NCBI GenBank assembly: GCA_902760865.1
Contig: CACWID010000003.1
Location: forward strand, 1 to 64,000
DNA: 64,000 bases
Origin: an uncultured Bacteroidales bacterium
GTDB taxonomy: Bacteria; Bacteroidota; Bacteroidia; Bacteroidales; Muribaculaceae
Direction of reading: 5' to 3'
The translations under genes were made by a program, and so were the position numbers. Each line of letters opens with the position of its first letter. Position 1 is the stretch's first letter. Positions 1 through 62,531 of the stretch are shown here, one piece after another. The notes under the pieces are model-generated. The model saw only the letters and a program-made list of their open reading frames with translations. It made no database searches and was not told the DNA's origin.

Positions 1-85
1 TAAAAGGAAAGAGCCCGGTGCAATACCGAACTCTTTACTCTTAAATCAATAATGTTTAACCCGTCCAACTTTTTGGGGTCACTTC

Positions 86-230
86 AGATTAGAGGGGGTT
101 GGGGGGCGTTGATGCCCCAAAAGTTAATGCTTTGAGGGAAATCATACTCCTCCGGCGCTATGCGCCACCTCCCCTATCTTAGGGGAGGAATTGAGTATCA
201 GTACTTTATTATCGACGAACTCACGCTACC
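86..230 (+). repeat. Dispersed hairpin-rich intergenic repeat, copy 1
   Basis: This stretch matches 24302-24447 almost along its whole length and is matched in inverted, truncated form at 51425-51510. It carries three short hairpins in a row: GGGGC/GCCCC at 103-118, GGCG..CGCC at 154-166, and CCTCCCCT/AGGGGAGG at 168-188. It lies beyond the 3' end of the FGE-like gene. The rest of the first 361 bases holds an imperfect hairpin at 8-36, which may be the terminator of a gene to the left, and a short GC-rich hairpin at 299-319. I see no gene in it. Confidence 0.75.
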
Positions 231-240
231 TGTTCACTGT

Positions 241-259
241 TAACTGTTCTCTGTTAACT
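241..259. repeat. Short dispersed motif, also found at 3826-3844
   Basis: This 19-base motif differs at two positions from 3826-3844 and contains GTTAAC-type palindromic halves. Both copies lie in non-coding DNA just past the 3' end of a minus-strand gene. I infer a simple intergenic repeat; no function is visible. Confidence 0.4.
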
Positions 260-361
260 AAACAAAGTATTTGGTGGACATCATCTAGTGATTGGCATGG
301 GTGGGCTAAAGCACCGCCCGAACCAAACCACTAAATTACGTTAAATTGACGAGGAATAAGA

Positions 362-1183
362 CTAAAGAGCGAGTCGCAATCCCAGGTTGTCGCCGGTGTT
401 CGTAGGGGGAAGGAAGCGGCGGTTCAACACGTTGCAGTACTTGGCCTCGTAGTACCAGCAGCCACCACGGAGCACGCGGCCAGGGCCCGAAGTGGGACCA
501 GTGGGATTGGTCTGCGCATCACTGCTGTAACTTTGTGCCCAGTAGTCCTGGCACCACTCCCACACGTTGCCGCTCATATCATACAGGCCCAATTCGTTAG
601 GGGCTTTTGTGGCAACTGTTTGTGTGCCATATCCTACATTACCGCTTGTTTGTGAGGGAACACTATACCACGCCACATCATCAGGGTAGTTGCTACCCGA
701 GTATTTGTAACCATGGCTCTGGTTGCCGCCACGGGCTGCAAACTCCCATTGAGCCTCGGTAGGCAGGCGGAACTTCTTACCTGTCAATTGGTTCAACTTG
801 GTGATAAACGTCTGGCAATCGTTCCATGAGACGCACTCTACAGGACGCTGCAGGTTAGTGGTGTAATCGTTACGACTGCTAAAGTGGCTTGGGTTGCTTC
901 CCATCACGGCCTGCCACAAAGCCTGCGTCACCTCGGTCTGGCCGATGAAGTAACTCGAGAGCGTCACCTCATGGGCAGGCGGTACCCAGTAGAAGTCATC
1001 GCCAGCCTGCTCGGCTGTCAGGCCCATGGAGAATGTGCCACCCTCGACTTCCACCATTGTGAACGTCACGCCGTTCACAGTGAAGGTTTTGTCGGGATTC
1101 ACGGGCTCATCCTTTCCGCATGACGTGGAAATTACTGTCATCAGAATCAACACAAATAGAATTGAACTAATTTTTTTCATCAT
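362..1183 (-). CDS. SUMF1/FGE-domain lipoprotein, probably non-catalytic
   Basis: An exported protein of about 273 residues with a lipoprotein signal (hydrophobic stretch ending VISTSC, Cys near residue 22), followed by a formylglycine-generating-enzyme-like fold from about residue 40 to the end. The family signatures are GGTFSMG, GQTEVTQALWQAVMG, RLPTEAQWEFAARGG, GLYDMSGNVWEWCQDYW and RVLRGGCW. In true FGE enzymes two cysteines lie after the GGS motif; here the first position is Tyr and only the second (KYC) is Cys, so formylglycine formation looks unlikely. Such proteins are common Bacteroidota surface lipoproteins of unknown role. I chose the ATG at 1183; a TTG directly upstream is less likely. 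Confidence 0.85.
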   Translation of the reverse strand: MMKKISSILFVLILMTVISTSCGKDEPVNPDKTFTVNGVTFTMVEVEGGTFSMGLTAEQAGDDFYWVPPAHEVTLSSYFIGQTEVTQALWQAVMGSNPSHFSSRNDYTTNLQRPVECVSWNDCQTFITKLNQLTGKKFRLPTEAQWEFAARGGNQSHGYKYSGSNYPDDVAWYSVPSQTSGNVGYGTQTVATKAPNELGLYDMSGNVWEWCQDYWAQSYSSDAQTNPTGPTSGPGRVLRGGCWYYEAKYCNVLNRRFLPPTNTGDNLGLRLAL

Positions 1184-1204
1184 CAATTCATTTTACCTCT
1201 TATC

Positions 1205-1858
1205 TTATACCAAATATTCCGTGGGATCGTCGATGCCTGCTTCCTTGAGGGCTTGGCGGCGCTCGGTGCAGGTGCCGCAGGTGCCGCAGTGCTTCTCGCC
1301 GCCCTTGTAGCAGGAGTAGGTCTCGCTATAGTCCAGCCCCAGGGCTGCGCCATGGCGGGCGATATCGGCCTTGCTCAGGTCGGTATAGGGGGCATAGACC
1401 TTGACACCCTCGTAGGTGCCTGTCATCATCGCCGTGCTCATGGCCTCGATGAAGGGCGAGCGGCAGTCAGGGTAGATGCTGTGGTCGCCGGCGTGGTTGG
1501 CAATCATGACGCGCTTGAGGCCGTTGCTCTCGGCAATGCCACAGGCGATGGCGAGCATGATGCCGTTGCGGAACGGAACGACGGTCGCCTTCATGTTCTC
1601 GTCATCATAGTTGCCGTCGGGAATAGCATCGGCACTCTCGAGCAAGGCGCTCTTGAAATACTTGTGCATGAAATCCAATGGTATGATCAGGTGCTTGATG
1701 CCCAGGCGCTGGCAGTGCATGATGGCACAGCGACGCTCACGGCCGTTCTGCGTGCTGCCGTAGTCAAAGGTGATGGCCAGGGCAATCTCGTCCTTGTACT
1801 CATAGAGCATGGTTGTCGAGTCCATGCCGCCCGAAGTAATGATAACTGCGTCTTTCAT
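1205..1858 (-). CDS. queC: 7-cyano-7-deazaguanine synthase QueC
   Basis: This converts 7-carboxy-7-deazaguanine to preQ0 with ATP and ammonia in the queuosine pathway (cytoplasm). The 217-residue product starts MKDAVIITSGGMDS, with the PP-loop SGGMDS at residues 9-14, and ends with the zinc-binding cysteine cluster CYKGGEKHCGTCGTC. I start it at the ATG at 1858, one base after the queF stop, because residues encoded further upstream only read through queF in another frame. It forms a queF-queC operon, so the reductase is made first and the synthase second. No queD or queE is in the window. Confidence 0.95.
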   Translation of the reverse strand: MKDAVIITSGGMDSTTMLYEYKDEIALAITFDYGSTQNGRERRCAIMHCQRLGIKHLIIPLDFMHKYFKSALLESADAIPDGNYDDENMKATVVPFRNGIMLAIACGIAESNGLKRVMIANHAGDHSIYPDCRSPFIEAMSTAMMTGTYEGVKVYAPYTDLSKADIARHGAALGLDYSETYSCYKGGEKHCGTCGTCTERRQALKEAGIDDPTEYLV

Positions 1859-1859
1859 A

Positions 1860-2330
1860 TTAATCGTTGTGGAAATTGCTGATGAGACGGGCACGCACCA
1901 TGTCCTGATGCTCGTCGTCACCATAGTTGGCAAACGGCTTGATGCTGATGCCGCCACGCGGGTTGAACAGGCCGATGACCTCCAGGTATTTGGGGTCCAT
2001 CAGCTTGACCAGGTCCTTCATGATGATGTTGACGCAATCCTCGTGAAAGTCGCCATGGTTGCGGAAGCTGAACAAGTACAATTTCAGGCTCTTGCTCTCG
2101 ACCATGCGCACGCGCGGGATGTAGTTGATGATGATGTGGCCGAAGTCGGGCTGGCCCGTCTTGGGACACAACGAGGTGAACTCGGGGCAATCGAGCGTCA
2201 CCACATATTCGTTCTCGGGATGCTTGTTCTCAAAGGTCTCGAGCACGTCGGGACGGTAGTCAAACTCATAGGTCGTGCCCTGGTTGCCCAGCAACGTCAC
2301 GCCCTCGAGTTCCTTTTCATTTCTAGACAT
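1860..2330 (-). CDS. queF: NADPH-dependent 7-cyano-7-deazaguanine reductase QueF
   Basis: This reduces preQ0 to preQ1, the step after QueC. The short (type I) form of about 156 residues carries the catalytic cysteine motif [15 protein letters not shown] and the family block [16 protein letters not shown]. Start: ATG at 2330 ([10 protein letters not shown]); a TTG three codons upstream would add MVI. A consensus -7 box (TAATTTTG, minus strand) lies at 2360-2367, so queF-queC and possibly the lipoprotein downstream form one transcription unit separate from the amidotransferase gene. I see no preQ1 riboswitch in the short leader. Confidence 0.95.
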
Positions 2331-2359
2331 AATAACCAATAATTTTTGATTTCGGGCTG

Positions 2360-2367
2360 CAAAATTA
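2360..2367 (-). promoter_or_regulatory. Promoter -7 box for queF
   Basis: TAATTTTG on the minus strand fits the Bacteroidota TAnnTTTG element, 29 bases upstream of the queF ATG. No clear TTTG -33 box is seen. Confidence 0.55.
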
Positions 2368-2406
2368 GTAAAAATATTTCAGCCGTGGGCCATAACGCCC
2401 GTGCAA

Positions 2407-3117
2407 TCATCTATCAAGCAACAGGTCAAGGGCATATCGGGCCGCTTCGAGGCCTTGCGGGGTCAGGCGTTCAAGGCTCTGTAGCGCAGCAAGTCTGACA
2501 GGCTCGTCAACGTCATCGCAGCAGTTGGTGAGCAGGTGGCGGCTGTAGGCGACCGTGAACTCGGGATGGCCCTGGAAAGTGACGACCTGATGCCCGATTC
2601 TGAACGACTCGTTCTTGCAGAAATCGCTCGTGGCACACAATACGGCATCCTGTGGCAACGATACCACCTGGTCGTGGTGGCTGTAGAGTAAACGCATCTC
2701 CTGTCCCGGGAAATAGGGCGCCATGCGCTCATCAATCACTTGCGAAGCCCGAATACCGGCACCAAAACCGCCATCGTAGCGCCTCACTTCACCGCCCAGA
2801 GCCCTGGCAATCACCTGATGGCCGAAGCACACGCCCATCAACTTGGCTCCACGACAATAGGCATGTTCAATCCACTTGACCAGTGCGACAATCCACGGTT
2901 TGTCGTCATAGGCCGAATCCAGGCTGCCAGGCACCAGATATATCTCGTCGGTATTGACCGACGGGGGTAATTCGCCCTGCCACGTCTGGAATATCTTGTA
3001 TGAAACCTGTTCACCGATAGCGGCAAACAGGTCCATAAACAGTGACTCGTAGTTGGGGATGAAATCAGGCAGCCTTCCAGGGAAGGTGTCACACAGCAGG
3101 ATGTTGACACGAATCAT
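2407..3117 (-). CDS. Class I glutamine amidotransferase-like protein (GMP synthase glutaminase type)
   Basis: A stand-alone class I glutaminase domain of 236 residues. The nucleophile elbow is MGVCFGHQ (Cys97) and the His-Glu pair is FQGHPEF (His184, Glu186), so the triad looks intact. The family includes free amidotransferases of uncertain substrate and gamma-glutamyl-peptide hydrolases; no synthetase domain is attached. Its start overlaps the stop of the HD-domain gene by four bases (ATGA), so the two are translationally coupled. The substrate cannot be told from sequence. Confidence 0.85.
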   Translation of the reverse strand: MIRVNILLCDTFPGRLPDFIPNYESLFMDLFAAIGEQVSYKIFQTWQGELPPSVNTDEIYLVPGSLDSAYDDKPWIVALVKWIEHAYCRGAKLMGVCFGHQVIARALGGEVRRYDGGFGAGIRASQVIDERMAPYFPGQEMRLLYSHHDQVVSLPQDAVLCATSDFCKNESFRIGHQVVTFQGHPEFTVAYSRHLLTNCCDDVDEPVRLAALQSLERLTPQGLEAARYALDLLLDR

Positions 3118-3746
3118 AACTCGTCAATCTCCTCTCCCGTGCGTTCCATGATACTTGCTGCCAGCCCGTCGGCCGTCTGGATGATAGAAACCAGCGGATA
3201 GAGCTTGCGGGCCGCGTCATAGTTGCGCACATCCTCATAGCTGTTCTGGTTGACGCCCCAGGCCCCCATGTGCCAACGGATGGCCAGCATCTCGTCGTCA
3301 TTCAGTGGCAGGCCGCTACACAGCAGCAGGGTCAATGATTTCTCGCCATGACCCATCGGGAAACTCTTGTAAGTGATTTTATAGCCCTCGGCATCTTCCC
3401 AAATGCCCAGCGCATTCTTGCGCTTCTTGATCGACCTCTTGTAGATGTCACACTTGCAGACGTCGTGCAGGATGCTGGCAAGGATGATGCTGTCGCGTTT
3501 CACCTCATGCTCAAGACCGGGCTCCAGGTCCTTCATCGCCTCCCAAACGGCAAGCGCAGCCTTGCAGGTGTTGAGCGAATGCTTAGCGAGGCCGCCCTCG
3601 GTATTCAGGTGATGACCAGCCGACGCCGGAGCAGTGAAAAAGCCCCAAGCCTCCAGGTCCCCGATCACATCCTCGATACCCTCACGCCCGGTCGAGCGCA
3701 ACAACTCGAGGATTTCTTCTTTACAATTCTTATCGCTGTTTTTCAT
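3114..3746 (-). CDS. HD-domain hydrolase-like protein
   Basis: A soluble 210-residue protein. It shows a His at HSLNTC (His56) and the diagnostic HD pair in ILASILHDVCKCD (His94-Asp95), as in metal-dependent phosphohydrolases, and a later conserved region around residues 135-165 (MGHGEKS, IRWHMGAWG). Proteins with this arrangement are annotated as HD family hydrolases, possibly acting on nucleotides. It is the first gene of a pair with the glutamine amidotransferase, with ATGA overlap. I infer shared function but cannot name the pathway. Confidence 0.8.
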   Translation of the reverse strand: MKNSDKNCKEEILELLRSTGREGIEDVIGDLEAWGFFTAPASAGHHLNTEGGLAKHSLNTCKAALAVWEAMKDLEPGLEHEVKRDSIILASILHDVCKCDIYKRSIKKRKNALGIWEDAEGYKITYKSFPMGHGEKSLTLLLCSGLPLNDDEMLAIRWHMGAWGVNQNSYEDVRNYDAARKLYPLVSIIQTADGLAASIMERTGEEIDEL

Positions 3747-3852
3747 TATTAAATCTTATTAGTGTTTTTGTTGTCGTGCACGCGCGGACGAAACGGACAA
3801 AACGGACAAAACGGATGCCAACTCTTAACTGTTCATTGTTAACTATTAACTA
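3747..3852. repeat. Intergenic short tandem repeat and dispersed motif
   Basis: Between the mlaF stop and the HD gene start lies a short tandem array of a 9-base unit (GGACAAAAC, two clean copies at 3795-3812 and a degenerate one before them), then the 19-base motif at 3826-3844 shared with 241-259. No gene or clear promoter is visible here. Confidence 0.5.
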
Positions 3853-26915: not shown

Positions 26916-29252
26916 TCACTCGGGTTCCTCTCCTGATTCTACAGGTTCTCCTGATTGAAGAAGCATCAGAATCAGTTTGGTGACATCTTTGATCGTGATG
27001 AACCCGTCTTCATTCAAATCCGCATTGGGAATGTTTATTTCCTGATAATCACCATCGGTGAGCAAATAAGAGATGAGAATAGTCAAGTCCTTGATTGAAA
27101 CGATTCCGTCATCATTGACGTCACCGGGGATAATATCGTCCTCGTGAAGGCTGAGCAAATACTGTACACCAGCCATCGCATCAATCTTTCCATTGGGTCC
27201 AAAACGCCTGCCGTAAGATGGATCATAGAATGCATTGTCCTTGATGGCTGTCCTTGATATAATGTCTTTGATCTGTCCAGGAGATAAAGTGGGGTCAATT
27301 TGCAACCATTCAGCGATAATACCTGCCACAGTCGGAGCTGCCATCGAGGTTCCACTCATAGCGCCCCACAAGTAACCCTCGGGTGTGCGCATCACTAGTT
27401 CGCTAGTGATGCCATTGAAGTAAGAGTACCTGCTGCCGGCTGCAATCACATTAAAGCCGGGGGCCATAACCGTGGGCAGATGTTTACCCGATGGGCCTCT
27501 GTCCGGATACTCATAAGCGGATACAAAATAGAGGCCACCGACACTGGCGTTGGGATCACCCATCATTTGGTCCTGGTTCAAGGAATAATAGGTCGTACGG
27601 GCTACATAAGCGCCAGCCGAAATGGTTGAATCGCCGACAGCATAGGTATTGATGCTGCAATAGTCAACTGGATTGGTATAGAAATTCTGAACTGCCTCGG
27701 TGATAGTGTCACCGCTCTCAGTGACCTTGTCAACGTAGACTACATCATAGTAGTTCCCACGCGCTCCGGAGCAAATCCAGGAATCGATGTAGCAGCTGTC
27801 TGGCTGAGTCGAATACTTAAGCGACGGAGCATACAATGTCACACCTATCTGGTAACGGCTGTTGATCAAACCAGTTTGGTCAATGTAGTAATTTTTACAT
27901 TTTAGATTATAGATATAACACTGTAATTCAAATTTGTTATTTGATGACTGAGAAATAACGGATGTCAAGTAGCCCACGCTATCTGTCTCTGGATCTGGGG
28001 CATAATATTGACTGATTTCCGATGCGTCAACTCTCAAATATGGCGATTCCATGGCTGACTCCCAAGCAATGCGCTTGGTGTACTTGTCAAAAATGTGGAA
28101 CCTGACAAGGAGACGTGTTCTAGGTGCTCTCACCCAAGTATCAAACCACATGCTTTTGTAGAAAAACGTTCTGTCTGAATACAATTTGGGCGCATCAAAG
28201 CAGAAGCACATGTTTAAGGGCTTCTGTTTTGTGACAGGACCATGCACATACCAGTACCTGTTGCCTCCATTACCTGCTGCGATGACAAAAATGCGGCCTG
28301 GACCCGTAAGTTGATTAACTGCCTGAGAAATACGGTCTAAGCCGTCATGAGATCCTTGATTGGTGCTGATGCTCAAACTGATGACGCAAGGCTTTCCCAC
28401 GCTGTCGGCATAGGAATAGATATACTTAATGGCATTAATCACTTTAACCTCATCGACAATCAATTGCAGATTCCTTACCGAACACAGGACGATGTCGGCG
28501 CCAGGAGCCATGCCGCTATATCCACCTACGTTAATACCAGCAGCAATACTGGTCGTGTGGGTACCATGAGCGCTATGGGTGTCATAAGTCATCGTGTCAA
28601 GTTGTTCGCCCATGAAAACCGATCCAGGCAAATAGCTATTGCCAACCTTGACACGGTGACCGGTATCGTTCAACTGGTCATAGACACGGGCTATGCGCGT
28701 GCGACTTGTGTCATTGGCACACCTGAAAGCGAGATGGCGGTAATCAAAGCCCTCGTCAATCACGCCAATAATCACACCGCTTCCGTCATATGCCTGAGGC
28801 AGTCCATAATCGGGACCGTTCAGCACTTGTCCTGCATGGGTGGCCAGGAGTGTGGAATCAGTACACAAGTCGACAACACGACTGATCTCGACATTTGCGA
28901 CACCAGGTATATTAGTCAGTTTACTCAGTTGACTGACCGGCACCTGAGCGGTAACAAAGCCGTCAAACTCACAGTTGACCCTTACACCATAATTGCGCAA
29001 AACAGGAATTGCCGTTACATTGTCAATATCAATGAAGGCGTTCACCATCTCTACGCCATCAATCACTTCAGGTTGAGCAAACATGGGTTTGAATACAGAT
29101 TCATCACCGTGAGGGTTGATTTTCTGTCGACGTTCATAGTTGGCGCGCTCGTCCATAAAGAGCCGAACGGAGCTGGGCAACACATGCTGCAGTTGTGCAT
29201 AACCCATTGCCAACGCAAAGAATGAGATAATTGCAAAGACTGTTCTTTTCAT
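26916..29252 (-). CDS. Secreted S8 subtilisin-like peptidase with C-terminal dockerin-like repeats (paralogue)
   Basis: A 778-residue exported serine protease of the same build as its neighbour: signal peptide to about 19, prodomain about 65-125, Asp166 in GVIDEGFD, His229 in SAHGTHTTSIA, Ser636 in MSGTSMAAPT. Residues about 709-768 carry two dockerin-like loops (GDVNDDGIVSIKDLTILI and ADLNEDGFITIKDVTKLI), followed by a short acidic tail (SGEPVESGEEPE). A -7 box (TATCTTTG, minus strand) lies at 29277-29284. The insert between His and Ser is large, as in the paralogue. Confidence 0.92.
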   Translation of the reverse strand: MKRTVFAIISFFALAMGYAQLQHVLPSSVRLFMDERANYERRQKINPHGDESVFKPMFAQPEVIDGVEMVNAFIDIDNVTAIPVLRNYGVRVNCEFDGFVTAQVPVSQLSKLTNIPGVANVEISRVVDLCTDSTLLATHAGQVLNGPDYGLPQAYDGSGVIIGVIDEGFDYRHLAFRCANDTSRTRIARVYDQLNDTGHRVKVGNSYLPGSVFMGEQLDTMTYDTHSAHGTHTTSIAAGINVGGYSGMAPGADIVLCSVRNLQLIVDEVKVINAIKYIYSYADSVGKPCVISLSISTNQGSHDGLDRISQAVNQLTGPGRIFVIAAGNGGNRYWYVHGPVTKQKPLNMCFCFDAPKLYSDRTFFYKSMWFDTWVRAPRTRLLVRFHIFDKYTKRIAWESAMESPYLRVDASEISQYYAPDPETDSVGYLTSVISQSSNNKFELQCYIYNLKCKNYYIDQTGLINSRYQIGVTLYAPSLKYSTQPDSCYIDSWICSGARGNYYDVVYVDKVTESGDTITEAVQNFYTNPVDYCSINTYAVGDSTISAGAYVARTTYYSLNQDQMMGDPNASVGGLYFVSAYEYPDRGPSGKHLPTVMAPGFNVIAAGSRYSYFNGITSELVMRTPEGYLWGAMSGTSMAAPTVAGIIAEWLQIDPTLSPGQIKDIISRTAIKDNAFYDPSYGRRFGPNGKIDAMAGVQYLLSLHEDDIIPGDVNDDGIVSIKDLTILISYLLTDGDYQEINIPNADLNEDGFITIKDVTKLILMLLQSGEPVESGEEPE

Positions 29253-56366: not shown

Positions 56367-58571
56367 TTAGTTCTGGGGTGTAGCGGGAACGGGATTCACA
56401 GCGGCCTTGGCGGCAGCAATGGAATCCTGCTCGGCCTTATACTGCTTGGCGGCTTCGCTGTCGGGCTTCAGCCAAGTATCGAGCCAGCGGAAGAATTCGC
56501 GCTGCCACATGATGCTGTTCTGGGGCTTGAGAATCCAGTGGTTCTCATCCGGGAAGAGCAGCAAGCGGGCGGGAAGGCCCTTGATCTTGGCGGCATTGAA
56601 TGCCTGGCAAGCCTGGGTGAAGACGATGCGGTAGTCGAGTTCGCCGGCAGTGCACATGATGGGAGTATCCCAGTTCTGGACGTAATTCTTCGGGTTGGCC
56701 TGAGTGTAGGAGCGCTGAGCGGTAGCGTTGCTCTTCTCCCAGAAGGCGCCACCCAGATCCCACTGTACGAACCACATCTCCTCGGTCTCAAGGTACTGTG
56801 CCTCGAGGTTGAAGATACCGGCGTGGGCCAGGAAGCAGGCAAAGCGCTTGTTGTGATTACCGGCCAGGAAGTAAACCGAGTAGCCACCGTAGCTGGCACC
56901 CACAGCGCCGATGTGCTCACCGTCGATGTAGGGCTCCTTCTTCATGTAATCGACTGCAGCGATGTAGTCACGCATGTTCTGGCCACCGTAGTCGCCGCTG
57001 ATCTGGGCATTCCACTCGGTGCCGAAGCCGGGCAGACCACGACGGTTGGGCAGAATGACAATGTAGCCGTTGCTGGCCATGATGCGCATGTTCCAGCGAT
57101 AGCTCCAGAACTGGCTGACGGGAGACTGGGGACCACCCTCGCAGAAGAGGATAGCGGGATACTTCTTGTTGGGGTCGAAGTTGGGCGGGTAGCATACCCA
57201 AGTCGTCATCAGCTTGCCATCGGTGGTGGGCACCATGCGCTTCTCGATGCCGATGGGATCAACCTGGGCCAGCATTTCGTCATTGACATGGGTGAGCTGA
57301 ACGGGTTCCTTGCCCATCTGGATGCTGACGATCTCGTTGGGAGTCTGGTAGCTCTGGCGGCAAGCGATAACGGTCTCGTTGTTGGGGAATGCCATGCTGT
57401 TGAAGTCACACACGCCCATGGCGATGGTGTCCACCTTCTGGGTAGCGACATCCATGCGGAAGATGGGCTGCGTGCCCTGGAACGGGCAGATGAAGTAGAT
57501 GGCCTTCTCGTCGGGCGACCAGGCGATATCGTCCACGCTGTAGTCCCAATTCTCGGTCAGGTCCTTCTTGTTGCCGGCAGCATCCATGAAGAAGATGCGG
57601 TTCTTGTCGGCCTCATAGCCGTCATGCTCCATCGAGAGCCAAGCCATCTCACCCTTGCTGTTGATGATGGGATAGGTGTCATAGCCCATCATGCCCTGGG
57701 TCAGGTTCTCGGTCTTGCCGGTCTCGAGGTTGTAGCGGTACAGGTCGCTGTTGGTCGAGAATGCGTAGTCCTTGCCGGTCTTCTTGCGGCAGACGTAAAC
57801 GAGGCTCTTGCTGTCGGGCGTCCAAGCCAGGGACTCGATGCCGCCCCAAGGCTTCATCGGTGACTCGTAGGGCTCGCCCTCGAGCACGTCCTTGACGTTA
57901 CCGGCCTTGCTGCCGTCAAAGTCGGCAACAAAGGGGTGAGGAATCGTGGTTACCCACTCGTCCCAGTGCTTGTACATCATGTCGTCGTACAGGCGGGCGG
58001 TCGTCTTGTCCAGGTCAGGATAAACGTCTTGAGGCGTCTTGCCATACTTCACCTGAGAAATCATGACCACGTGCTTCTCGTCGGGCGAGAAGACGAAGCC
58101 CTCGATGCCGTCCTTGACGTCGCTCACGCAGTTGCGACCGCCACCGTCGGCATTCATGGTCCACAGCTGCGGCGTCTTGTCTTCGCCCTCGTCGGTGTAG
58201 ATGAAGGCTATCTTCTTGCCACCGTCAATCCACACATAGTTGCTCTCGCTCTTGGGCGTGTTGGTAATCTGGCGGGCATTGCTGCCGTCAATGTCCATCA
58301 CCCACAGGTCACAGTTGCCCTTGTTGGTAGCGATGTCATAATAGGTCACGCCGTAGAGGATTTTCTTGCCGTCGGGCGACACTTGGGGACCGCCAACGCG
58401 ACCCAGCTGGTTGAGGAATTCGGGAGTGAACTCTTTTTTCTCCATCGTTGCAGATGTTTTCTCGGTGGCGGGAGCTTGGCCAGGAGCAGCCGTTTCCTGC
58501 TTGGAGCAGGTCGAGGAACTCAACAGGGCCAACACCGCAACCGACATTGCCGTTAACTTGAATAATTTCAT
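56367..58571 (-). CDS. S9-family prolyl oligopeptidase-type lipoprotein
   Basis: A 734-residue serine peptidase (DPP IV / acylaminoacyl-peptidase type) anchored by a lipoprotein signal (LLSSSTCSKQ, Cys near 23). An N-terminal beta-propeller (about 50-430) has repeated WSPDEK-type blades. The alpha/beta-hydrolase domain has the triad Ser560 in VGASYGGYS, Asp646 in GELDYRIVF and His678 in DENHWI. It probably trims peptides at the cell envelope. A minus-strand -7 box (TATTTTTG) lies at 58686-58693, about 115 bases upstream. Confidence 0.93.
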   Translation of the reverse strand: MKLFKLTAMSVAVLALLSSSTCSKQETAAPGQAPATEKTSATMEKKEFTPEFLNQLGRVGGPQVSPDGKKILYGVTYYDIATNKGNCDLWVMDIDGSNARQITNTPKSESNYVWIDGGKKIAFIYTDEGEDKTPQLWTMNADGGGRNCVSDVKDGIEGFVFSPDEKHVVMISQVKYGKTPQDVYPDLDKTTARLYDDMMYKHWDEWVTTIPHPFVADFDGSKAGNVKDVLEGEPYESPMKPWGGIESLAWTPDSKSLVYVCRKKTGKDYAFSTNSDLYRYNLETGKTENLTQGMMGYDTYPIINSKGEMAWLSMEHDGYEADKNRIFFMDAAGNKKDLTENWDYSVDDIAWSPDEKAIYFICPFQGTQPIFRMDVATQKVDTIAMGVCDFNSMAFPNNETVIACRQSYQTPNEIVSIQMGKEPVQLTHVNDEMLAQVDPIGIEKRMVPTTDGKLMTTWVCYPPNFDPNKKYPAILFCEGGPQSPVSQFWSYRWNMRIMASNGYIVILPNRRGLPGFGTEWNAQISGDYGGQNMRDYIAAVDYMKKEPYIDGEHIGAVGASYGGYSVYFLAGNHNKRFACFLAHAGIFNLEAQYLETEEMWFVQWDLGGAFWEKSNATAQRSYTQANPKNYVQNWDTPIMCTAGELDYRIVFTQACQAFNAAKIKGLPARLLLFPDENHWILKPQNSIMWQREFFRWLDTWLKPDSEAAKQYKAEQDSIAAAKAAVNPVPATPQN

Positions 58572-58784: not shown

Positions 58785-58899
58785 CAATCAAAAATGATTG
58801 TTTTGCTAAAAACAACCTAAAACGGTTGCTTTCTATGATTTCTCGCCCGAAAAACAATCAAAATCGGTTGTTTTTGGCAAAAACAATCAAAAATGGTTG
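58785..58899. promoter_or_regulatory. Array of four CAAYC-N6-GRTTG dyads upstream of the SatD-like gene
   Basis: Four 16-base dyads with the same inner spacing lie at 58785-58800, 58813-58828, 58855-58870 and 58884-58899, shifted by 28, 42 and 29 bases. Most extend outward to AACAATC...GGTTGTT. The last one includes the GTTG that serves as -33 box of the SatD-like gene promoter, so a bound protein should block or recruit RNA polymerase. This is a multi-site operator by inference. Confidence 0.75.
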
Positions 58900-58927
58900 T
58901 TTATCTCATTTCTATTTCTTATTTTTG
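58896..58927 (+). promoter_or_regulatory. Promoter of the SatD-like/DUF3307 operon
   Basis: GTTG (58896-58899), a 20-base spacer and TATTTTTG (58920-58927), 30 bases before the ATG at 58958. The -33 part lies inside the fourth dyad. Confidence 0.7.
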
Positions 58928-58957: not shown

Positions 58958-59605
58958 ATGAGAGGAGTTATCACAGGTGACATCGTCGGGTCTTCACAGA
59001 TCAAGACAGAATATCGAGAGCGTCTGCTGAACTGCCTGAACACGATGGAGAAAGAACTGCAGTGCGTATCGCCGTTCAGGATGGAACTGTTTCGCGGGGA
59101 CAGTTTCCAACTGCTGGTCGAGGATCCGGCTGCTGCAGCCAAAGTCGCCATCTTGTTACGGGCCGGACTCATTAATCACACTCCTAACCAAGGCAAGGGA
59201 ATATGGGACGCCAAAATCTCGTTGGGCATCGGCAACGTGGAATTCCTGTCGGACAATATCGTGACGTCCGACGGCGAGGCATTCCAGTACTCCGGCCGCC
59301 AGTTGGACCTGATGGGCAAACATCGCTTGACCATCAAGACGCCATGGCAAGACGTGAACGATGAGCTCGAGGTTTCCACGGCCTTTGTTGACGACATCAT
59401 CACAGGATGGTCCAGTAAACAGGCAGGGATGATTTACCTGTCACTCAAGCAAGACGCCCCCAAGAAGGAGGTGGCTGAGCACATCGGCACCTCGGTCCAG
59501 AACGTGCGCAACGTGCTCTCCTCGGCGCGTGAATCACTGGTTAAAAAGTACCTCACGCGCTATAGCGATATCATTACCGCCCACCAAATCGATCATCAGC
59601 CATGA
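58958..59605 (+). CDS. SatD-like protein with C-terminal helix-turn-helix
   Basis: A 215-residue protein of the SatD family, starting MRGVITGDIVGSSQI with the family's GDIVGSS motif, then FRMELFRGDSFQLLVEDP, reminiscent of nucleotide-cyclase-like folds. Residues about 150-195 (QAGMIYLSLKQDAPKKEVAE, then HIGTSVQNVRNVLSSARESL) form a helix-turn-helix of sigma-region-4 type. Its stop overlaps the DUF3307 gene start (ATGA). The reading frame stays open far upstream through the operator array, but the promoter fixes the start at 58958. It may bind the dyads itself. Confidence 0.85.
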   Translation: MRGVITGDIVGSSQIKTEYRERLLNCLNTMEKELQCVSPFRMELFRGDSFQLLVEDPAAAAKVAILLRAGLINHTPNQGKGIWDAKISLGIGNVEFLSDNIVTSDGEAFQYSGRQLDLMGKHRLTIKTPWQDVNDELEVSTAFVDDIITGWSSKQAGMIYLSLKQDAPKKEVAEHIGTSVQNVRNVLSSARESLVKKYLTRYSDIITAHQIDHQP

Positions 59606-60324
59606 GCATCATCATCCTATTGAAACTCTTATCGGCCCATGTGCTTGCCGACTTCTTCCTGCAGTTTGACAGACTGTGTGAATCCAAGCACGAGAAGAAT
59701 TGGCGCGGCATCACTGCCCAAGCCATCCATGCCCTCATCCATGCCGTGTGTGCCTACGTGTTGCTGGCCGACTGGGGAGGTTGGGTGATTCCACTGGTGA
59801 TATTTGTTACACATTTCATTATTGACATCCTCAAGATCAAGTGGCACGGCAGCAGCACGTTAGGCTTTCTTGCCGACCAGGCTGCCCACATCGGCGTCAT
59901 TCTCGTCTTGTGGTGGAGCATCTATGCCGACCATGGTCAGGTACAGGATTGGTTGACAACGGCCATCAATTCCAAGCGCCTGTGGGCAGTGCTCTTGAGC
60001 TACATGCTCGTCATGAAGCCCGCATCAATTCTCATTGGCATATTCATCAGGCGATGGATTCCTTCCAACAATATGCAGTCCCAAGGTATGCCCTTTGCCG
60101 GAGCGTGGATCGGATATATCGAGCGGGTACTGATATTGACCTTTGTTATCACAGGCAACATCGAGGGCGTGGGATTCCTGTTGGCAGCCAAGTCCATCTT
60201 CCGCTTTGGCGACCTGAACAAGGCTCGTGAAATCAAGATCACCGAGTATGTCCTGTTAGGCACTCTGGCAAGTTTTACGATTGCCCTGATAGTGGCATTC
60301 ACACTTAAATATTACTTGATATAG
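59602..60324 (+). CDS. DUF3307 membrane protein
   Basis: A 240-residue integral membrane protein with about six to seven hydrophobic segments. The N-terminal block LLSAHVLADFFLQFDRLCES and the His/Asp-containing FVTHFIIDILKIKWH and ADQAAHIGVI segments mark DUF3307, which often pairs with SatD. The conserved His and Asp residues in the membrane could bind metal or a lipid head group; function unknown. Coupled to the SatD-like gene by ATGA overlap. Confidence 0.88.
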   Translation: MSIIILLKLLSAHVLADFFLQFDRLCESKHEKNWRGITAQAIHALIHAVCAYVLLADWGGWVIPLVIFVTHFIIDILKIKWHGSSTLGFLADQAAHIGVILVLWWSIYADHGQVQDWLTTAINSKRLWAVLLSYMLVMKPASILIGIFIRRWIPSNNMQSQGMPFAGAWIGYIERVLILTFVITGNIEGVGFLLAAKSIFRFGDLNKAREIKITEYVLLGTLASFTIALIVAFTLKYYLI

Positions 60325-60347: not shown

Positions 60348-62531
60348 ATGATGATGAAAAAAACTTTAATGACAGCATTGGCAGCCATTGCGACCATCGG
60401 CTGCATAGCTATCACACCCAGCAACGACAGTTTTACACAATGGGTGAATCCGCGCATCGGCACTGGCGGACACGGACATGTATTTTACGGGGCCAACGTG
60501 CCATTCGGCTATGTGCAGTTGGGACCGACCGAGCCCACCCAGGGATGGGACTGGTGCTCGGGCTACCACGACAGTGACAGTGTGCTCATCGGCTTCGGCC
60601 ATCAGCACCTGAGCGGCACCGGCATCGGCGACCTGGGCGACATCGCATTGCTGCCCGTTACCAGCCGCGACAACCGTAAGGTGATTTTCAGCCACAAAGA
60701 CGAGCAGGCCAAGCTCGGCTATTACAGCATCACCCTGCGTGACCAGGGCAAGCCCTACGTCAAGGTGGAGCTTACCGCGTCACAACGCGCGGGTATGCAC
60801 CGTTACACCTTCACCCGCGATCAGCAGACAATGCAGTTGCTTCTCGACCTGCGCCAAGGCATCGGTTGGGACAGCCCCAAGGAAATGAAGATGCAGCAAG
60901 TATCGCCGCGTGTCATCATGGGCACCCGCAACTCCAGGGGTTGGGCAAATTGGCAAATAGACCACTTTGCTATGGTCTTCTCCCAGGATGTGAAACTCGA
61001 GAAACTGGCGCTTGACTCACTGGGACTCATCACGACAGCCAACACTGGACGCCCGTTGCTGGTTAAGGTGGGCATGTCGGCCGTGAGCAGCCAGAATGCG
61101 ATGATGAACATGATGGCCGAGATGCCCGATTGGGATTTTGATGCCGTTGCACAAGCCGCCGATCAAGCCTGGAATCAGGAACTGAGTAAAGTCAACATCA
61201 CGACTACAGACGATGAGGCCCGCACCGTATTCTATACGGCATTGTACCACACGATGGTGGCTCCGTCGGTCTTCAGTGACGTGAACGGTGAATACCGCGG
61301 CTCGGACGGTAAGGTGCATGAGGGAGATTTCACCAACTACACTACCCTCTCGCTGTGGGACACCTACCGTGCCGCTCATCCGTTACAGACGATTATCCAC
61401 CGCGAGAAGCAGCGCGACATGGCTCAGACCTTCCTGCACATCTTTGAGCAGCAGGGCAAACTGCCCGTGTGGCACCTGATGGGCAATGAGACCGACTGCA
61501 TGGTGGGCAACCCCGGCGCGCCCGTACTGGCCGACCTGGTCCTGAAAGGCTTTGATGTGGACACGGCAGCGGCGCTCAAGGCCATGGTGACAAGTGCCAT
61601 GCTAGACGAGCGTTCCATGAAGTGGTTGAAACAGTATGGCTATATCCCCTATGATATGGAATCAGAGAAGGAGACGGTAGCCAGGGGACTGGAGTATGCC
61701 CTCGCCGACTGGTGCATCGCCCGCATCGCATCACTGGCGGGTGACCAGGAGAACTACAACTACTTCGACAAGCGCAGCAAGTCCTATCGCCACTACTTTG
61801 ACAAAAAGAGCCGCTTCATGCGCGGCAAGGATTCCAAGGGCAACTTCCGTGACCTCAAGGACTTTGACCCCCTGTCGACCAAGCACCGCAACGACGACTA
61901 CTGCGAGGGCAATGCCTGGCAGTACACCTGGCTGGTGCCCCACGACGTGCACGGCCTGGTGGACCTGTTCGGCAGCGAGAAGGCATTCATCAGCAAACTT
62001 GACTCGCTGTTCATCGTCGAGGGAGACATGGGCGAGGAGGCATCGCCCGACGTATCGGGCCTCATCGGCCAGTATGCCCACGGCAACGAGCCCAGCCACC
62101 ATATCATCTATATGTACAACTATGTGGGACAGCCCTACAAGGCCGCACGTCTCATCCGTCAGGTCCTGCGGGAACAATACCGCAATGACGTGGACGGCCT
62201 GAGCGGCAACGAGGACGTGGGCCAGATGTCGGCATGGTATGTCTTGTCGTCCATCGGCCTGTATCAGGAAGAACCCGCTGGCGGCAAGTACATCATCGGC
62301 TCACCGCTGTTCAACGAGGCGACCATCAACGTGGGTGACGGCAAGACATTCACCGTCAAGACCATCAACAACAGCGACAAGAACATCTACGTTCAGAGCG
62401 TCACCCTCAACGGCAAGCGCTACGACAAGAGCTACATCGACTACCGCGACATCATTGCCGGCGGCACGCTGCAACTCGTCATGGGTCCCAAGCCCGGCAA
62501 GTGGGGCACGGCCAAGAAAAACAGGCCGTAG
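60348..62531 (+). CDS. GH92 alpha-mannosidase-like glycosidase
   Basis: A 727-residue exported GH92 enzyme, a calcium-dependent exo-alpha-mannosidase family used by gut Bacteroidota on host or yeast mannans. N-terminal signal (ALAAIATIGC, possibly a lipoprotein). Signatures: NPRIGTGGHGHVFYGANVPFG (key residues G48-H52), GTGIGDLGDIALLP, a (G)NETDCMVGNPG motif, GNEPSHHIIYMYN and LSGNEDVGQMSAWYVLSSIG. Which alpha linkage it cuts is not predictable. It starts 23 bases after the DUF3307 gene. Confidence 0.94.
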   Translation: MMMKKTLMTALAAIATIGCIAITPSNDSFTQWVNPRIGTGGHGHVFYGANVPFGYVQLGPTEPTQGWDWCSGYHDSDSVLIGFGHQHLSGTGIGDLGDIALLPVTSRDNRKVIFSHKDEQAKLGYYSITLRDQGKPYVKVELTASQRAGMHRYTFTRDQQTMQLLLDLRQGIGWDSPKEMKMQQVSPRVIMGTRNSRGWANWQIDHFAMVFSQDVKLEKLALDSLGLITTANTGRPLLVKVGMSAVSSQNAMMNMMAEMPDWDFDAVAQAADQAWNQELSKVNITTTDDEARTVFYTALYHTMVAPSVFSDVNGEYRGSDGKVHEGDFTNYTTLSLWDTYRAAHPLQTIIHREKQRDMAQTFLHIFEQQGKLPVWHLMGNETDCMVGNPGAPVLADLVLKGFDVDTAAALKAMVTSAMLDERSMKWLKQYGYIPYDMESEKETVARGLEYALADWCIARIASLAGDQENYNYFDKRSKSYRHYFDKKSRFMRGKDSKGNFRDLKDFDPLSTKHRNDDYCEGNAWQYTWLVPHDVHGLVDLFGSEKAFISKLDSLFIVEGDMGEEASPDVSGLIGQYAHGNEPSHHIIYMYNYVGQPYKAARLIRQVLREQYRNDVDGLSGNEDVGQMSAWYVLSSIGLYQEEPAGGKYIIGSPLFNEATINVGDGKTFTVKTINNSDKNIYVQSVTLNGKRYDKSYIDYRDIIAGGTLQLVMGPKPGKWGTAKKNRP

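Follow-up and report, generated by a model that had tools for sequence, protein, structure and literature searches.

A periodic operator array upstream of a satD-like/DUF3307 operon, probably read by the HTH of the SatD-like protein itself

The locus and its four dyads

The window, by which we mean the whole 64,000-nucleotide stretch of DNA analysed here, contains a satD-like gene and a DUF3307 gene arranged as an operon behind a cluster of inverted repeats. The features of the locus, in window positions, are listed below.

58785-58800, no strand: dyad 1, candidate operator, CAATC-AAAAAT-GATTG, exact pattern match
58813-58828, no strand: dyad 2, candidate operator, CAACC-TAAAAC-GGTTG, exact pattern match
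58855-58870, no strand: dyad 3, candidate operator, CAATC-AAAATC-GGTTG, exact pattern match
58884-58899, no strand: dyad 4, candidate operator, CAATC-AAAAAT-GGTTG, whose right arm is the presumed -33 box
58920-58927, plus strand: presumed -7 box TATTTTTG, a sequence match to the consensus TAnnTTTG
58958-59605, plus strand: satD-like gene, 215 aa, with a cyclase-like fold over about residues 1-150, a C-terminal HTH and a presumed recognition helix at residues 180-189
59602-60324, plus strand: gene for a DUF3307 predicted membrane protein, 240 aa, overlapping the satD-like gene by 4 nt

The four copies of CAAYC-N6-GRTTG originally predicted within 115 bases were all confirmed as exact matches (58785-58899), lying ahead of the satD-like gene with start-to-start steps of 28, 42 and 29. 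Outside the array the pattern occurs once in the 64 kb, as a stray match at 29060; shuffled versions of the 64 kb contained 0.45 matches on average, and none of 100 shuffles reached five. The longer form AAACAAYC-N6-GRTTGTTT fits all four dyads with 0-1 mismatch, and a search allowing up to three mismatches revealed no further site of this form anywhere in the window. At the scale of the 3.35-Mb assembly (about 95% complete), CAAYC-N6-GRTTGTTT is confined to the window array, and the 20-bp form AACAAYC-N6-GRTTGTT recovers, at 0-1 mismatch, the four window dyads only. With up to two mismatches the 20-bp form yields 22 sites per strand, versus 38 for a reversed-pattern control. On these genome-wide site counts we rejected the regulon of a global regulator.

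GTTG at 58896-58899 ends dyad 4 and stands 20 nt before TATTTTTG. Together the two elements are a good fit to the Bacteroidota -33/-7 consensus, and we presume them to be the promoter; the right arm of dyad 4 would then supply the -33 GTTG, in agreement with the earlier placement of the last dyad over the -33 box.

The SatD-like gene of the original prediction was retained with two amendments, its start codon being corrected to the ATG at 58958 and its match to Pfam SatD (PF16264) proving to be sub-threshold, at 17.3 bits with a cut-off of 29. We therefore name the protein SatD-like. Its weak SatD similarity spans residues 5-176, and in protein set A1 Pfam SatD matches 4 of the 13 members at E up to 0.1 (best 8.6e-6). 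The same Pfam search produced matches nowhere in the window's own genome or in 14 control genomes, and is hence uninformative there. Pfam also gave hints of a sigma-region-3/4-type HTH in the satD-like gene. The homologs closest to the window protein (72-79% identity among the best 80 of 93 loci in a genome-contig scan) stem mainly from assemblies of rumen metagenomes that carry the labels Muribaculaceae, Prevotellaceae or Bacteroidales. The operon itself is flanked by a GH92 glycosidase gene (60348-62531) and a divergent S9 peptidase gene (56367-58571), with no defence gene on either side.

Operator arrays at homologous loci

The homolog set was drawn from relatives (15 of 101 genomes matching), from the genome-contig scan (93 loci, best 80 kept) and from samples of the order (78 of 393 genomes), the class (63 of 395) and the phylum (129 of 395 matching the SatD-like profile at E up to 0.001); the samples overlap, and the order, phylum and class tallies include short HTH-only matches, a minority in the phylum. 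Arrays were called with one fixed detector, which demanded at least two matching dyads at a 28- or 29-bp step, no more than 220 nt from the start codon, and were counted over those unique loci for which 120 nt or more of upstream sequence was available (n = 151).

The search of orthologous upstream regions that the original prediction had proposed did find arrays. They lie directly upstream of satD at 121 of the 151 unique loci, mostly in Bacteroidota, and at 64 loci in a further batch of 100, 45 of which share 60% or more identity with an earlier locus or with another of the batch. Of 755 dinucleotide shuffles the detector called an array in 3, and of 435 control stretches taken at the same loci in 1; its threshold was not passed at 30 of the 151 unique loci and 36 of the 100 further loci.

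Spacing is the most regular property of these arrays. The first 100 scored loci contain 210 adjacent dyad distances, of which 174 are 28 or 29, and the period by locus (n = 119) is purely 28 in 53, purely 29 in 59 and mixed in 7. Within this same geometry the dyad letters vary by clade, with CAAC, CAAG, TAAG, TAAC, GAAC, TCGT, TCGG, TATG and other types. The sites are also local: exact TATCGT-N8-ACGATA occurs at 24 distinct sites in 9 of 10 other genomes with this operator type that were searched whole, and 21 of the 24 are at satD. Three genomes carry two paralogs, and two of them have a different operator at each copy (AACAACC and TACAAGT in G019, AACAACC and AGTAAGC in G036), a difference which suggests that the paralogs are insulated from one another; the second paralog of the third genome, G037, has no scored array.

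Two other ideas about the repeats were set aside. The choice between 28 and 29 bp does not appear to be set by a helix residue; its best column is 147, outside the helix, and probably reflects phylogeny. A CRISPR-like or plasmid-iteron nature of the repeats was also discounted, since every unit forms a dyad that matches the helix of the adjacent protein. As separate observations, the half-site orientation in 28-bp arrays such as those of L115 and L170 alternates about every 14 bp and allows a reading from either of two sets of dyad centres; this alternation suggests a continuous protein lattice. At another locus (L022, 1486-2967), the SatD-like protein has a long C-terminal extension (494 aa), and upstream of it there seem to be several palindromes of unlike sequence in place of one repeated dyad.

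The place of the array relative to the presumed promoter varies more. A TAnnTTTG box is present in 78 of the 119 upstream regions. It follows the array exclusively in 39 of them, precedes it exclusively in 18 and is confined to its interior in 13, and the other 8 have boxes at more than one of these places. Among CAAC-type relatives, the last dyad is centred 26-29 bp ahead of the box start in 20 of 23 loci; in the window its centre lies 28 bp upstream of the -7 box. Most CAAG-type loci (11 of 14) have their first dyad centred 16 bp downstream of the box start, so that the array would cover the transcript start. Array geometry is constant while its position relative to the presumed promoter shifts between clades, a combination that we read as favouring cooperative repression by blocking. 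SatD dimers would occupy the dyads cooperatively and keep the operon that encodes them repressed, with the array over or beside the promoter.

The same placements bear on a different mode of action, in which the SatD-like protein reads the array as an activator and sustains positive feedback. The position of the last dyad, about 28 bp upstream of the -7 box, resembles that of a class II activator site, and the 20 of 23 CAAC-type loci are in line with this; the CAAG-type loci with a first dyad beyond the box start argue against it, as does the overlap of the window's last dyad with the presumed -33 box itself. Because the array precedes the presumed -7 box in the CAAC clade and follows it in the CAAG clade, activation instead of repression is possible in the former or in some clades, and overall we regard it as a conceivable but doubtful account.

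The repeats might instead act in RNA, as hairpins of a 5′ leader. Such dyads could fold, and the 18 of 119 loci whose presumed promoter box lies only upstream of the array would suit this reading. We reject it as scarcely credible, since in the window, as in the CAAC clade, the array precedes the -7 box, and both the 28/29-bp spacing and the recognition-helix coupling described below suit the reading of DNA.

Operator letters and the recognition helix

If the protein's own HTH reads the array, operator letters should track the residues of the recognition helix and not general protein relatedness. A coupling scan of 215 protein columns across 181 loci (effective number 106.5) placed the strongest columns for positions 10 and 9 at residue 180, for position 8 at 181, for position 7 at 185, for position 6 at 182 and for position 5 at 185. 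All of these residues (180, 181, 182 and 185) fall inside the presumed recognition helix, 180-189, and are ordered along the half-site. The same residues came out on top in a first scan of 78 loci, in which position 4 paired best, though weakly, with R191. That scan kept 78 of 100 loci; L034, L036, L053, L067, L074, L088 and L101 were dropped by name, along with loci scoring below 18 or lacking a 28/29 step.

A test for co-change along a tree of residues 1-150, with p values uncorrected for the 215 columns, selected the same best column as the coupling scan for position 9 (p 4e-7), position 8 (p 2e-5), position 7 (p 4e-4, a value that would fail correction for 215 columns) and position 6 (p 8e-9). 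The pairing of position 5 with residue 185 was the most pronounced (p 4e-11), 19 of 39 residue changes being shared where 4.1 were expected. Position 10 misses the helix in this test, its best column being K32 (p 3e-3), and columns beyond the helix score as well, for example I159 with position 5 (p 8e-6).

Individual residues show tendencies in a table of 119 loci, 8 of them phase-flipped, that left out L034, L036, loci below the score threshold and loci with HTH gaps. At residue 181, Q goes with C8 (29/29), R with G8 (3/3) and P with T8 (10/10), and S is mixed (51 loci, with T8 in 39 and C8 in 12). At residue 185, Q goes with G5 (29/31), K with C5 (24/27) and E, G or D with C7 (32/33).

Could another cellular regulator read the dyads, with the link to the SatD helix arising by inheritance? 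Related proteins do have operators in common, and the scores of non-helix columns indicate that the coupling is partly phylogenetic. Against this stand the best columns for positions 10 to 5, which all lie at residues 180-185 in helix order, the selection of the same residues for positions 9 to 5 by co-change on the residues 1-150 tree, the confinement of the sites to the locus, and the two two-paralogue genomes with a different operator at each copy. We consider such a regulator very improbable. The coupling peak in the recognition helix strongly supports the earlier guess that the SatD-like HTH reads the dyads, and makes the SatD-like protein itself very probably the reader of the operators. 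The coupling of an HTH to its own operator, as in an autoregulatory one-component transcription factor, is found here with exceptions.

Two prediction tests addressed the single-residue tendencies. For the first, the rules were fixed before new genomes were taken up; of 48 new loci, 46 had a 28/29 step, 39 were under 60% identity and 33 were usable. Residue 181 predicted position 8 in 16 of 20 cases and residue 185 predicted position 5 in 7 of 8; the rule for position 7 failed (16/33). All 4 misses at position 8 were 28-bp arrays that the detector had read in the alternative phase, and after a post hoc phase correction all 20 residue-181 predictions hold.

The second test, likewise declared in advance, used the 55 of 100 loci that were left after the identity cut, 38 of which had arrays. 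Q185 went with G5 in 10 of 12 (baseline 15/38; binomial p 0.0025) and K185 with C5 in 4 of 8 (baseline 8/38, p 0.066). With E, G or D, C7 was found in 4 of 5 and G6 in 4 of 5, and with K, Q or N, position 7 was A or T in 18 of 22. For residue 181, the pairs scored 9/9 (P-T8), 1/1 (Q-C8) and 0/1 (R-G8), and the rule assigning T8 to S, N, A or G held in 22 of 22; the P181-T8 and S/N/A/G-T8 scores say little because T8 prevails (35/38). The two single-residue tests thus succeeded only in part. A simple one-residue code was set aside as holding in part only, given the position-7 rule of the first test and K185-C5 in the second; from the K185-C5 and R181-G8 results, the code depends on context. The coupling is real, and a context-free code is only approximate.

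Collectively, we assign a probability of roughly 0.85 to the reading that the four dyads form an operator array of the satD-like/DUF3307 operon that is read by the SatD-like protein's own HTH. Operator letters that change in step with its own DNA-reading helix strongly suggest that the SatD-like protein controls its own operon, a conclusion drawn from comparative sequence evidence.

The cyclase-like domain, the membrane partner and the spread of the pair

An AlphaFold2 model of the SatD-like protein, built from 66 homologs, reached a pLDDT of 96.9. Its best Foldseek matches are class III adenylyl cyclases (4wp8, probability 1.00, E 3.9e-5, TM 0.48/0.61), with lower matches to GGDEF domains and to a type III CRISPR Csm chain that is presumably Cas10. 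A search of PDB sequences by profile likewise returned Ma1120 and another cyclase at E about 9e-5 (9.3e-5); its top row, 8vd6, covers the HTH stretch only. Both the fold and the profile comparison thus place the N-terminus in the cyclase fold. Two aspartates are nearly invariant among 150 SatD-like sequences (D8 in 149, D48 in 150), and from their motif position we infer that they are the metal-binding pair of class III cyclases. The transition-state Asn and Arg of those enzymes are not conserved: position 110, the place of the Asn, is variable (I, Y, V, Q, R, H and T, the seven commonest residues, make up 138/150), and Arg114 is present in just 74 of 150, both of which make canonical catalysis doubtful. 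The domain appears to be a metal-nucleotide site on a cyclase fold that lacks standard class III catalysis, and the combination of this fold and the metal aspartates with unconserved catalytic Asn/Arg suggests that the N-terminus may be a nucleotide sensor.

The partner protein belongs to DUF3307 (PF11750), with 65.9 bits for the window protein versus a cut-off of 23, and all 66 members of set A3 match PF11750 at E up to 1. DUF3307 directly follows satD in 134 of 154 loci (15 are without it and 5 are cut), with the 4-nt overlap in 67 of the 134 paired loci, and this conserved partner agrees with the membrane part of the self-regulated membrane system first proposed. Residues H13, D17, Q21, H43, H71, D75, D92, Q93, H96, E174, R175, K197, R201 and E215 are invariant among 66 sequences. 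The model is confident (pLDDT 94), and a fold search against the PDB returned no match at E up to 0.001; with the invariant residues, this leads us to guess that DUF3307 is a membrane enzyme. A putative regulatory circuit would then run as follows. The cyclase-fold domain would bind a metal-nucleotide or related small molecule that alters DNA binding, and when this signal appears DUF3307, a membrane protein with many invariant His, Asp and Glu residues, would be made.

The satD-like/DUF3307 unit occurs in many bacteria and some archaea, and also on plasmids. SatD-like matches were found, among others, on E. coli pEC34A (3,770-bp), on Klebsiella plasmids of the same or similar size, and on plasmids of Enterobacter, Vibrio lentus, Pseudoalteromonas, Segatella and Sphingomonas; through DUF3307 matches, two plasmids of Salinivibrio and two of haloarchaea join the list. 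Arrays are present at 7 of the 12 annotated plasmid loci that were inspected, the dyad patterns having been picked after viewing the sequences. Haloplanus and Halorientalis carry GTTCG-N10-CGAAC at four sites in two pairs 29 bp apart; the Vibrio plasmid has TTAGCC-N6-GGCTAA at three sites 28 bp apart, the Enterobacter plasmid TCAACC-N5-GGTTGA at two sites 29 bp apart, the Pseudoalteromonas plasmid GTAAC-N8-GTTAC at two sites 28 bp apart, and pEC34A and one Klebsiella plasmid two related sites 29 bp apart. No clear array was seen at the other 5 (Segatella L184, Sphingomonas L187, Salinivibrio L189 and L190, and Pseudomonas fragi L191), and a Fusobacterium copy has one dyad. By eye, the haloarchaea combine SE with C7/G6, in line with the residue tendencies, Enterobacter has Q and K with C8 and C5, and Vibrio and Pseudoalteromonas have K with C5; in pEC34A one of the two sites is without C8.

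Several of these loci show further features. The tiny E. coli and Klebsiella plasmids (L183, which is pEC34A, 1-3770; L193, 1-4424) have Rop-type replication genes and the pair as their main cargo. In Sphingomonas insulae (L187, 2741-6600) the pair adjoins a Pycsar-annotated effector and a cyclase gene, with TIR and ImmA/IrrE genes on its other side. Upstream of the Segatella copy (L184, 3618-3937) are three near-identical CCATATTTTTC[AG]ATTAA direct repeats, outside the dyad scheme. One IMG/VR viral contig (L134, 3860-4000) holds a relative that has its own AACAGCC-type array in 29-bp steps.

These settings raise the idea of satD-DUF3307 as a defence module, anti-phage or carried by mobile elements, that SatD keeps silent until infection relieves the block. 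In its favour are the 3.8- and 4.4-kb plasmids with the pair as main cargo, the Pycsar-annotated neighbour in Sphingomonas, toxin-antitoxin, nuclease or restriction genes near the pair in two other loci, and fold relatives that include cyclases and the type III CRISPR Csm chain. However, PADLOC has no family matching either window protein at E up to 1, the neighbours in the window are metabolic genes and the Salinivibrio copies sit among ordinary genes. A tblastn search of 50,697 phage records with both window proteins also found nothing, although the IMG/VR contig holds a relative and a DUF3307 protein of a jumbo phage is listed in one paper. A defence role is, on this balance, unlikely.

Extending self-reading by the SatD-like protein further, we offer a speculation that we would sooner doubt than defend as a whole. 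SatD would found a cross-domain nucleotide-sensing family in which a degenerate cyclase domain governs HTH dimers assembled as a polymer-like array with a 28/29-bp lattice. Lineages would rewrite operator and helix together, insulating paralogues and plasmid copies, and the silenced DUF3307 membrane enzyme would counter infection or nucleotide stress.

Both satD-like and DUF3307 genes are of unassigned function yet widespread. Probable self-reading, with residues and bases named, opens immediate assays for the signal and for the job of DUF3307, and the natural pairs of helix and operator are a ready dataset on HTH recognition and on the diversification of regulator specificity. The retrieved portions of the openly licensed literature contained no description of SatD operators or of DNA binding by SatD, the Pfam family under whose cut-off the window protein falls, and openly licensed papers yielded nothing on nucleotidyl cyclase-HTH autoregulation in "Bacteroid-" taxa or on recognition-helix coevolution.

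Among known systems, Pfam SatD is the nearest by sequence, and a Fusobacterium relative has the same order, with a cyclase-like start, an HTH-like end (a weak HTH match) and DUF3307 behind. Class III nucleotidyl cyclases (Ma1120, 4wp8) have the fold and the two conserved aspartates in common with the SatD-like protein; unlike them, the SatD-like domain is fused to an HTH resembling sigma region 3/4, and Asn/Arg are unconserved. The Pycsar and Panoptes defence systems resemble satD-DUF3307 in that each is described as pairing a cyclase- or Cas10-like protein with a membrane protein. Unlike either, SatD has an HTH and operators and is without a PADLOC match. Lambda cI and the C proteins of restriction systems are autoregulated one-component regulators with multi-site operators; like theirs, the satD-like gene lies beside its own dyad operators, which are clade-specific in sequence and have few or no other sites in the genome. 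Unlike these regulators, the SatD-like protein has a nucleotidyl-cyclase-fold domain and a membrane-protein partner, and its array keeps a 28/29-bp period across very distant hosts.
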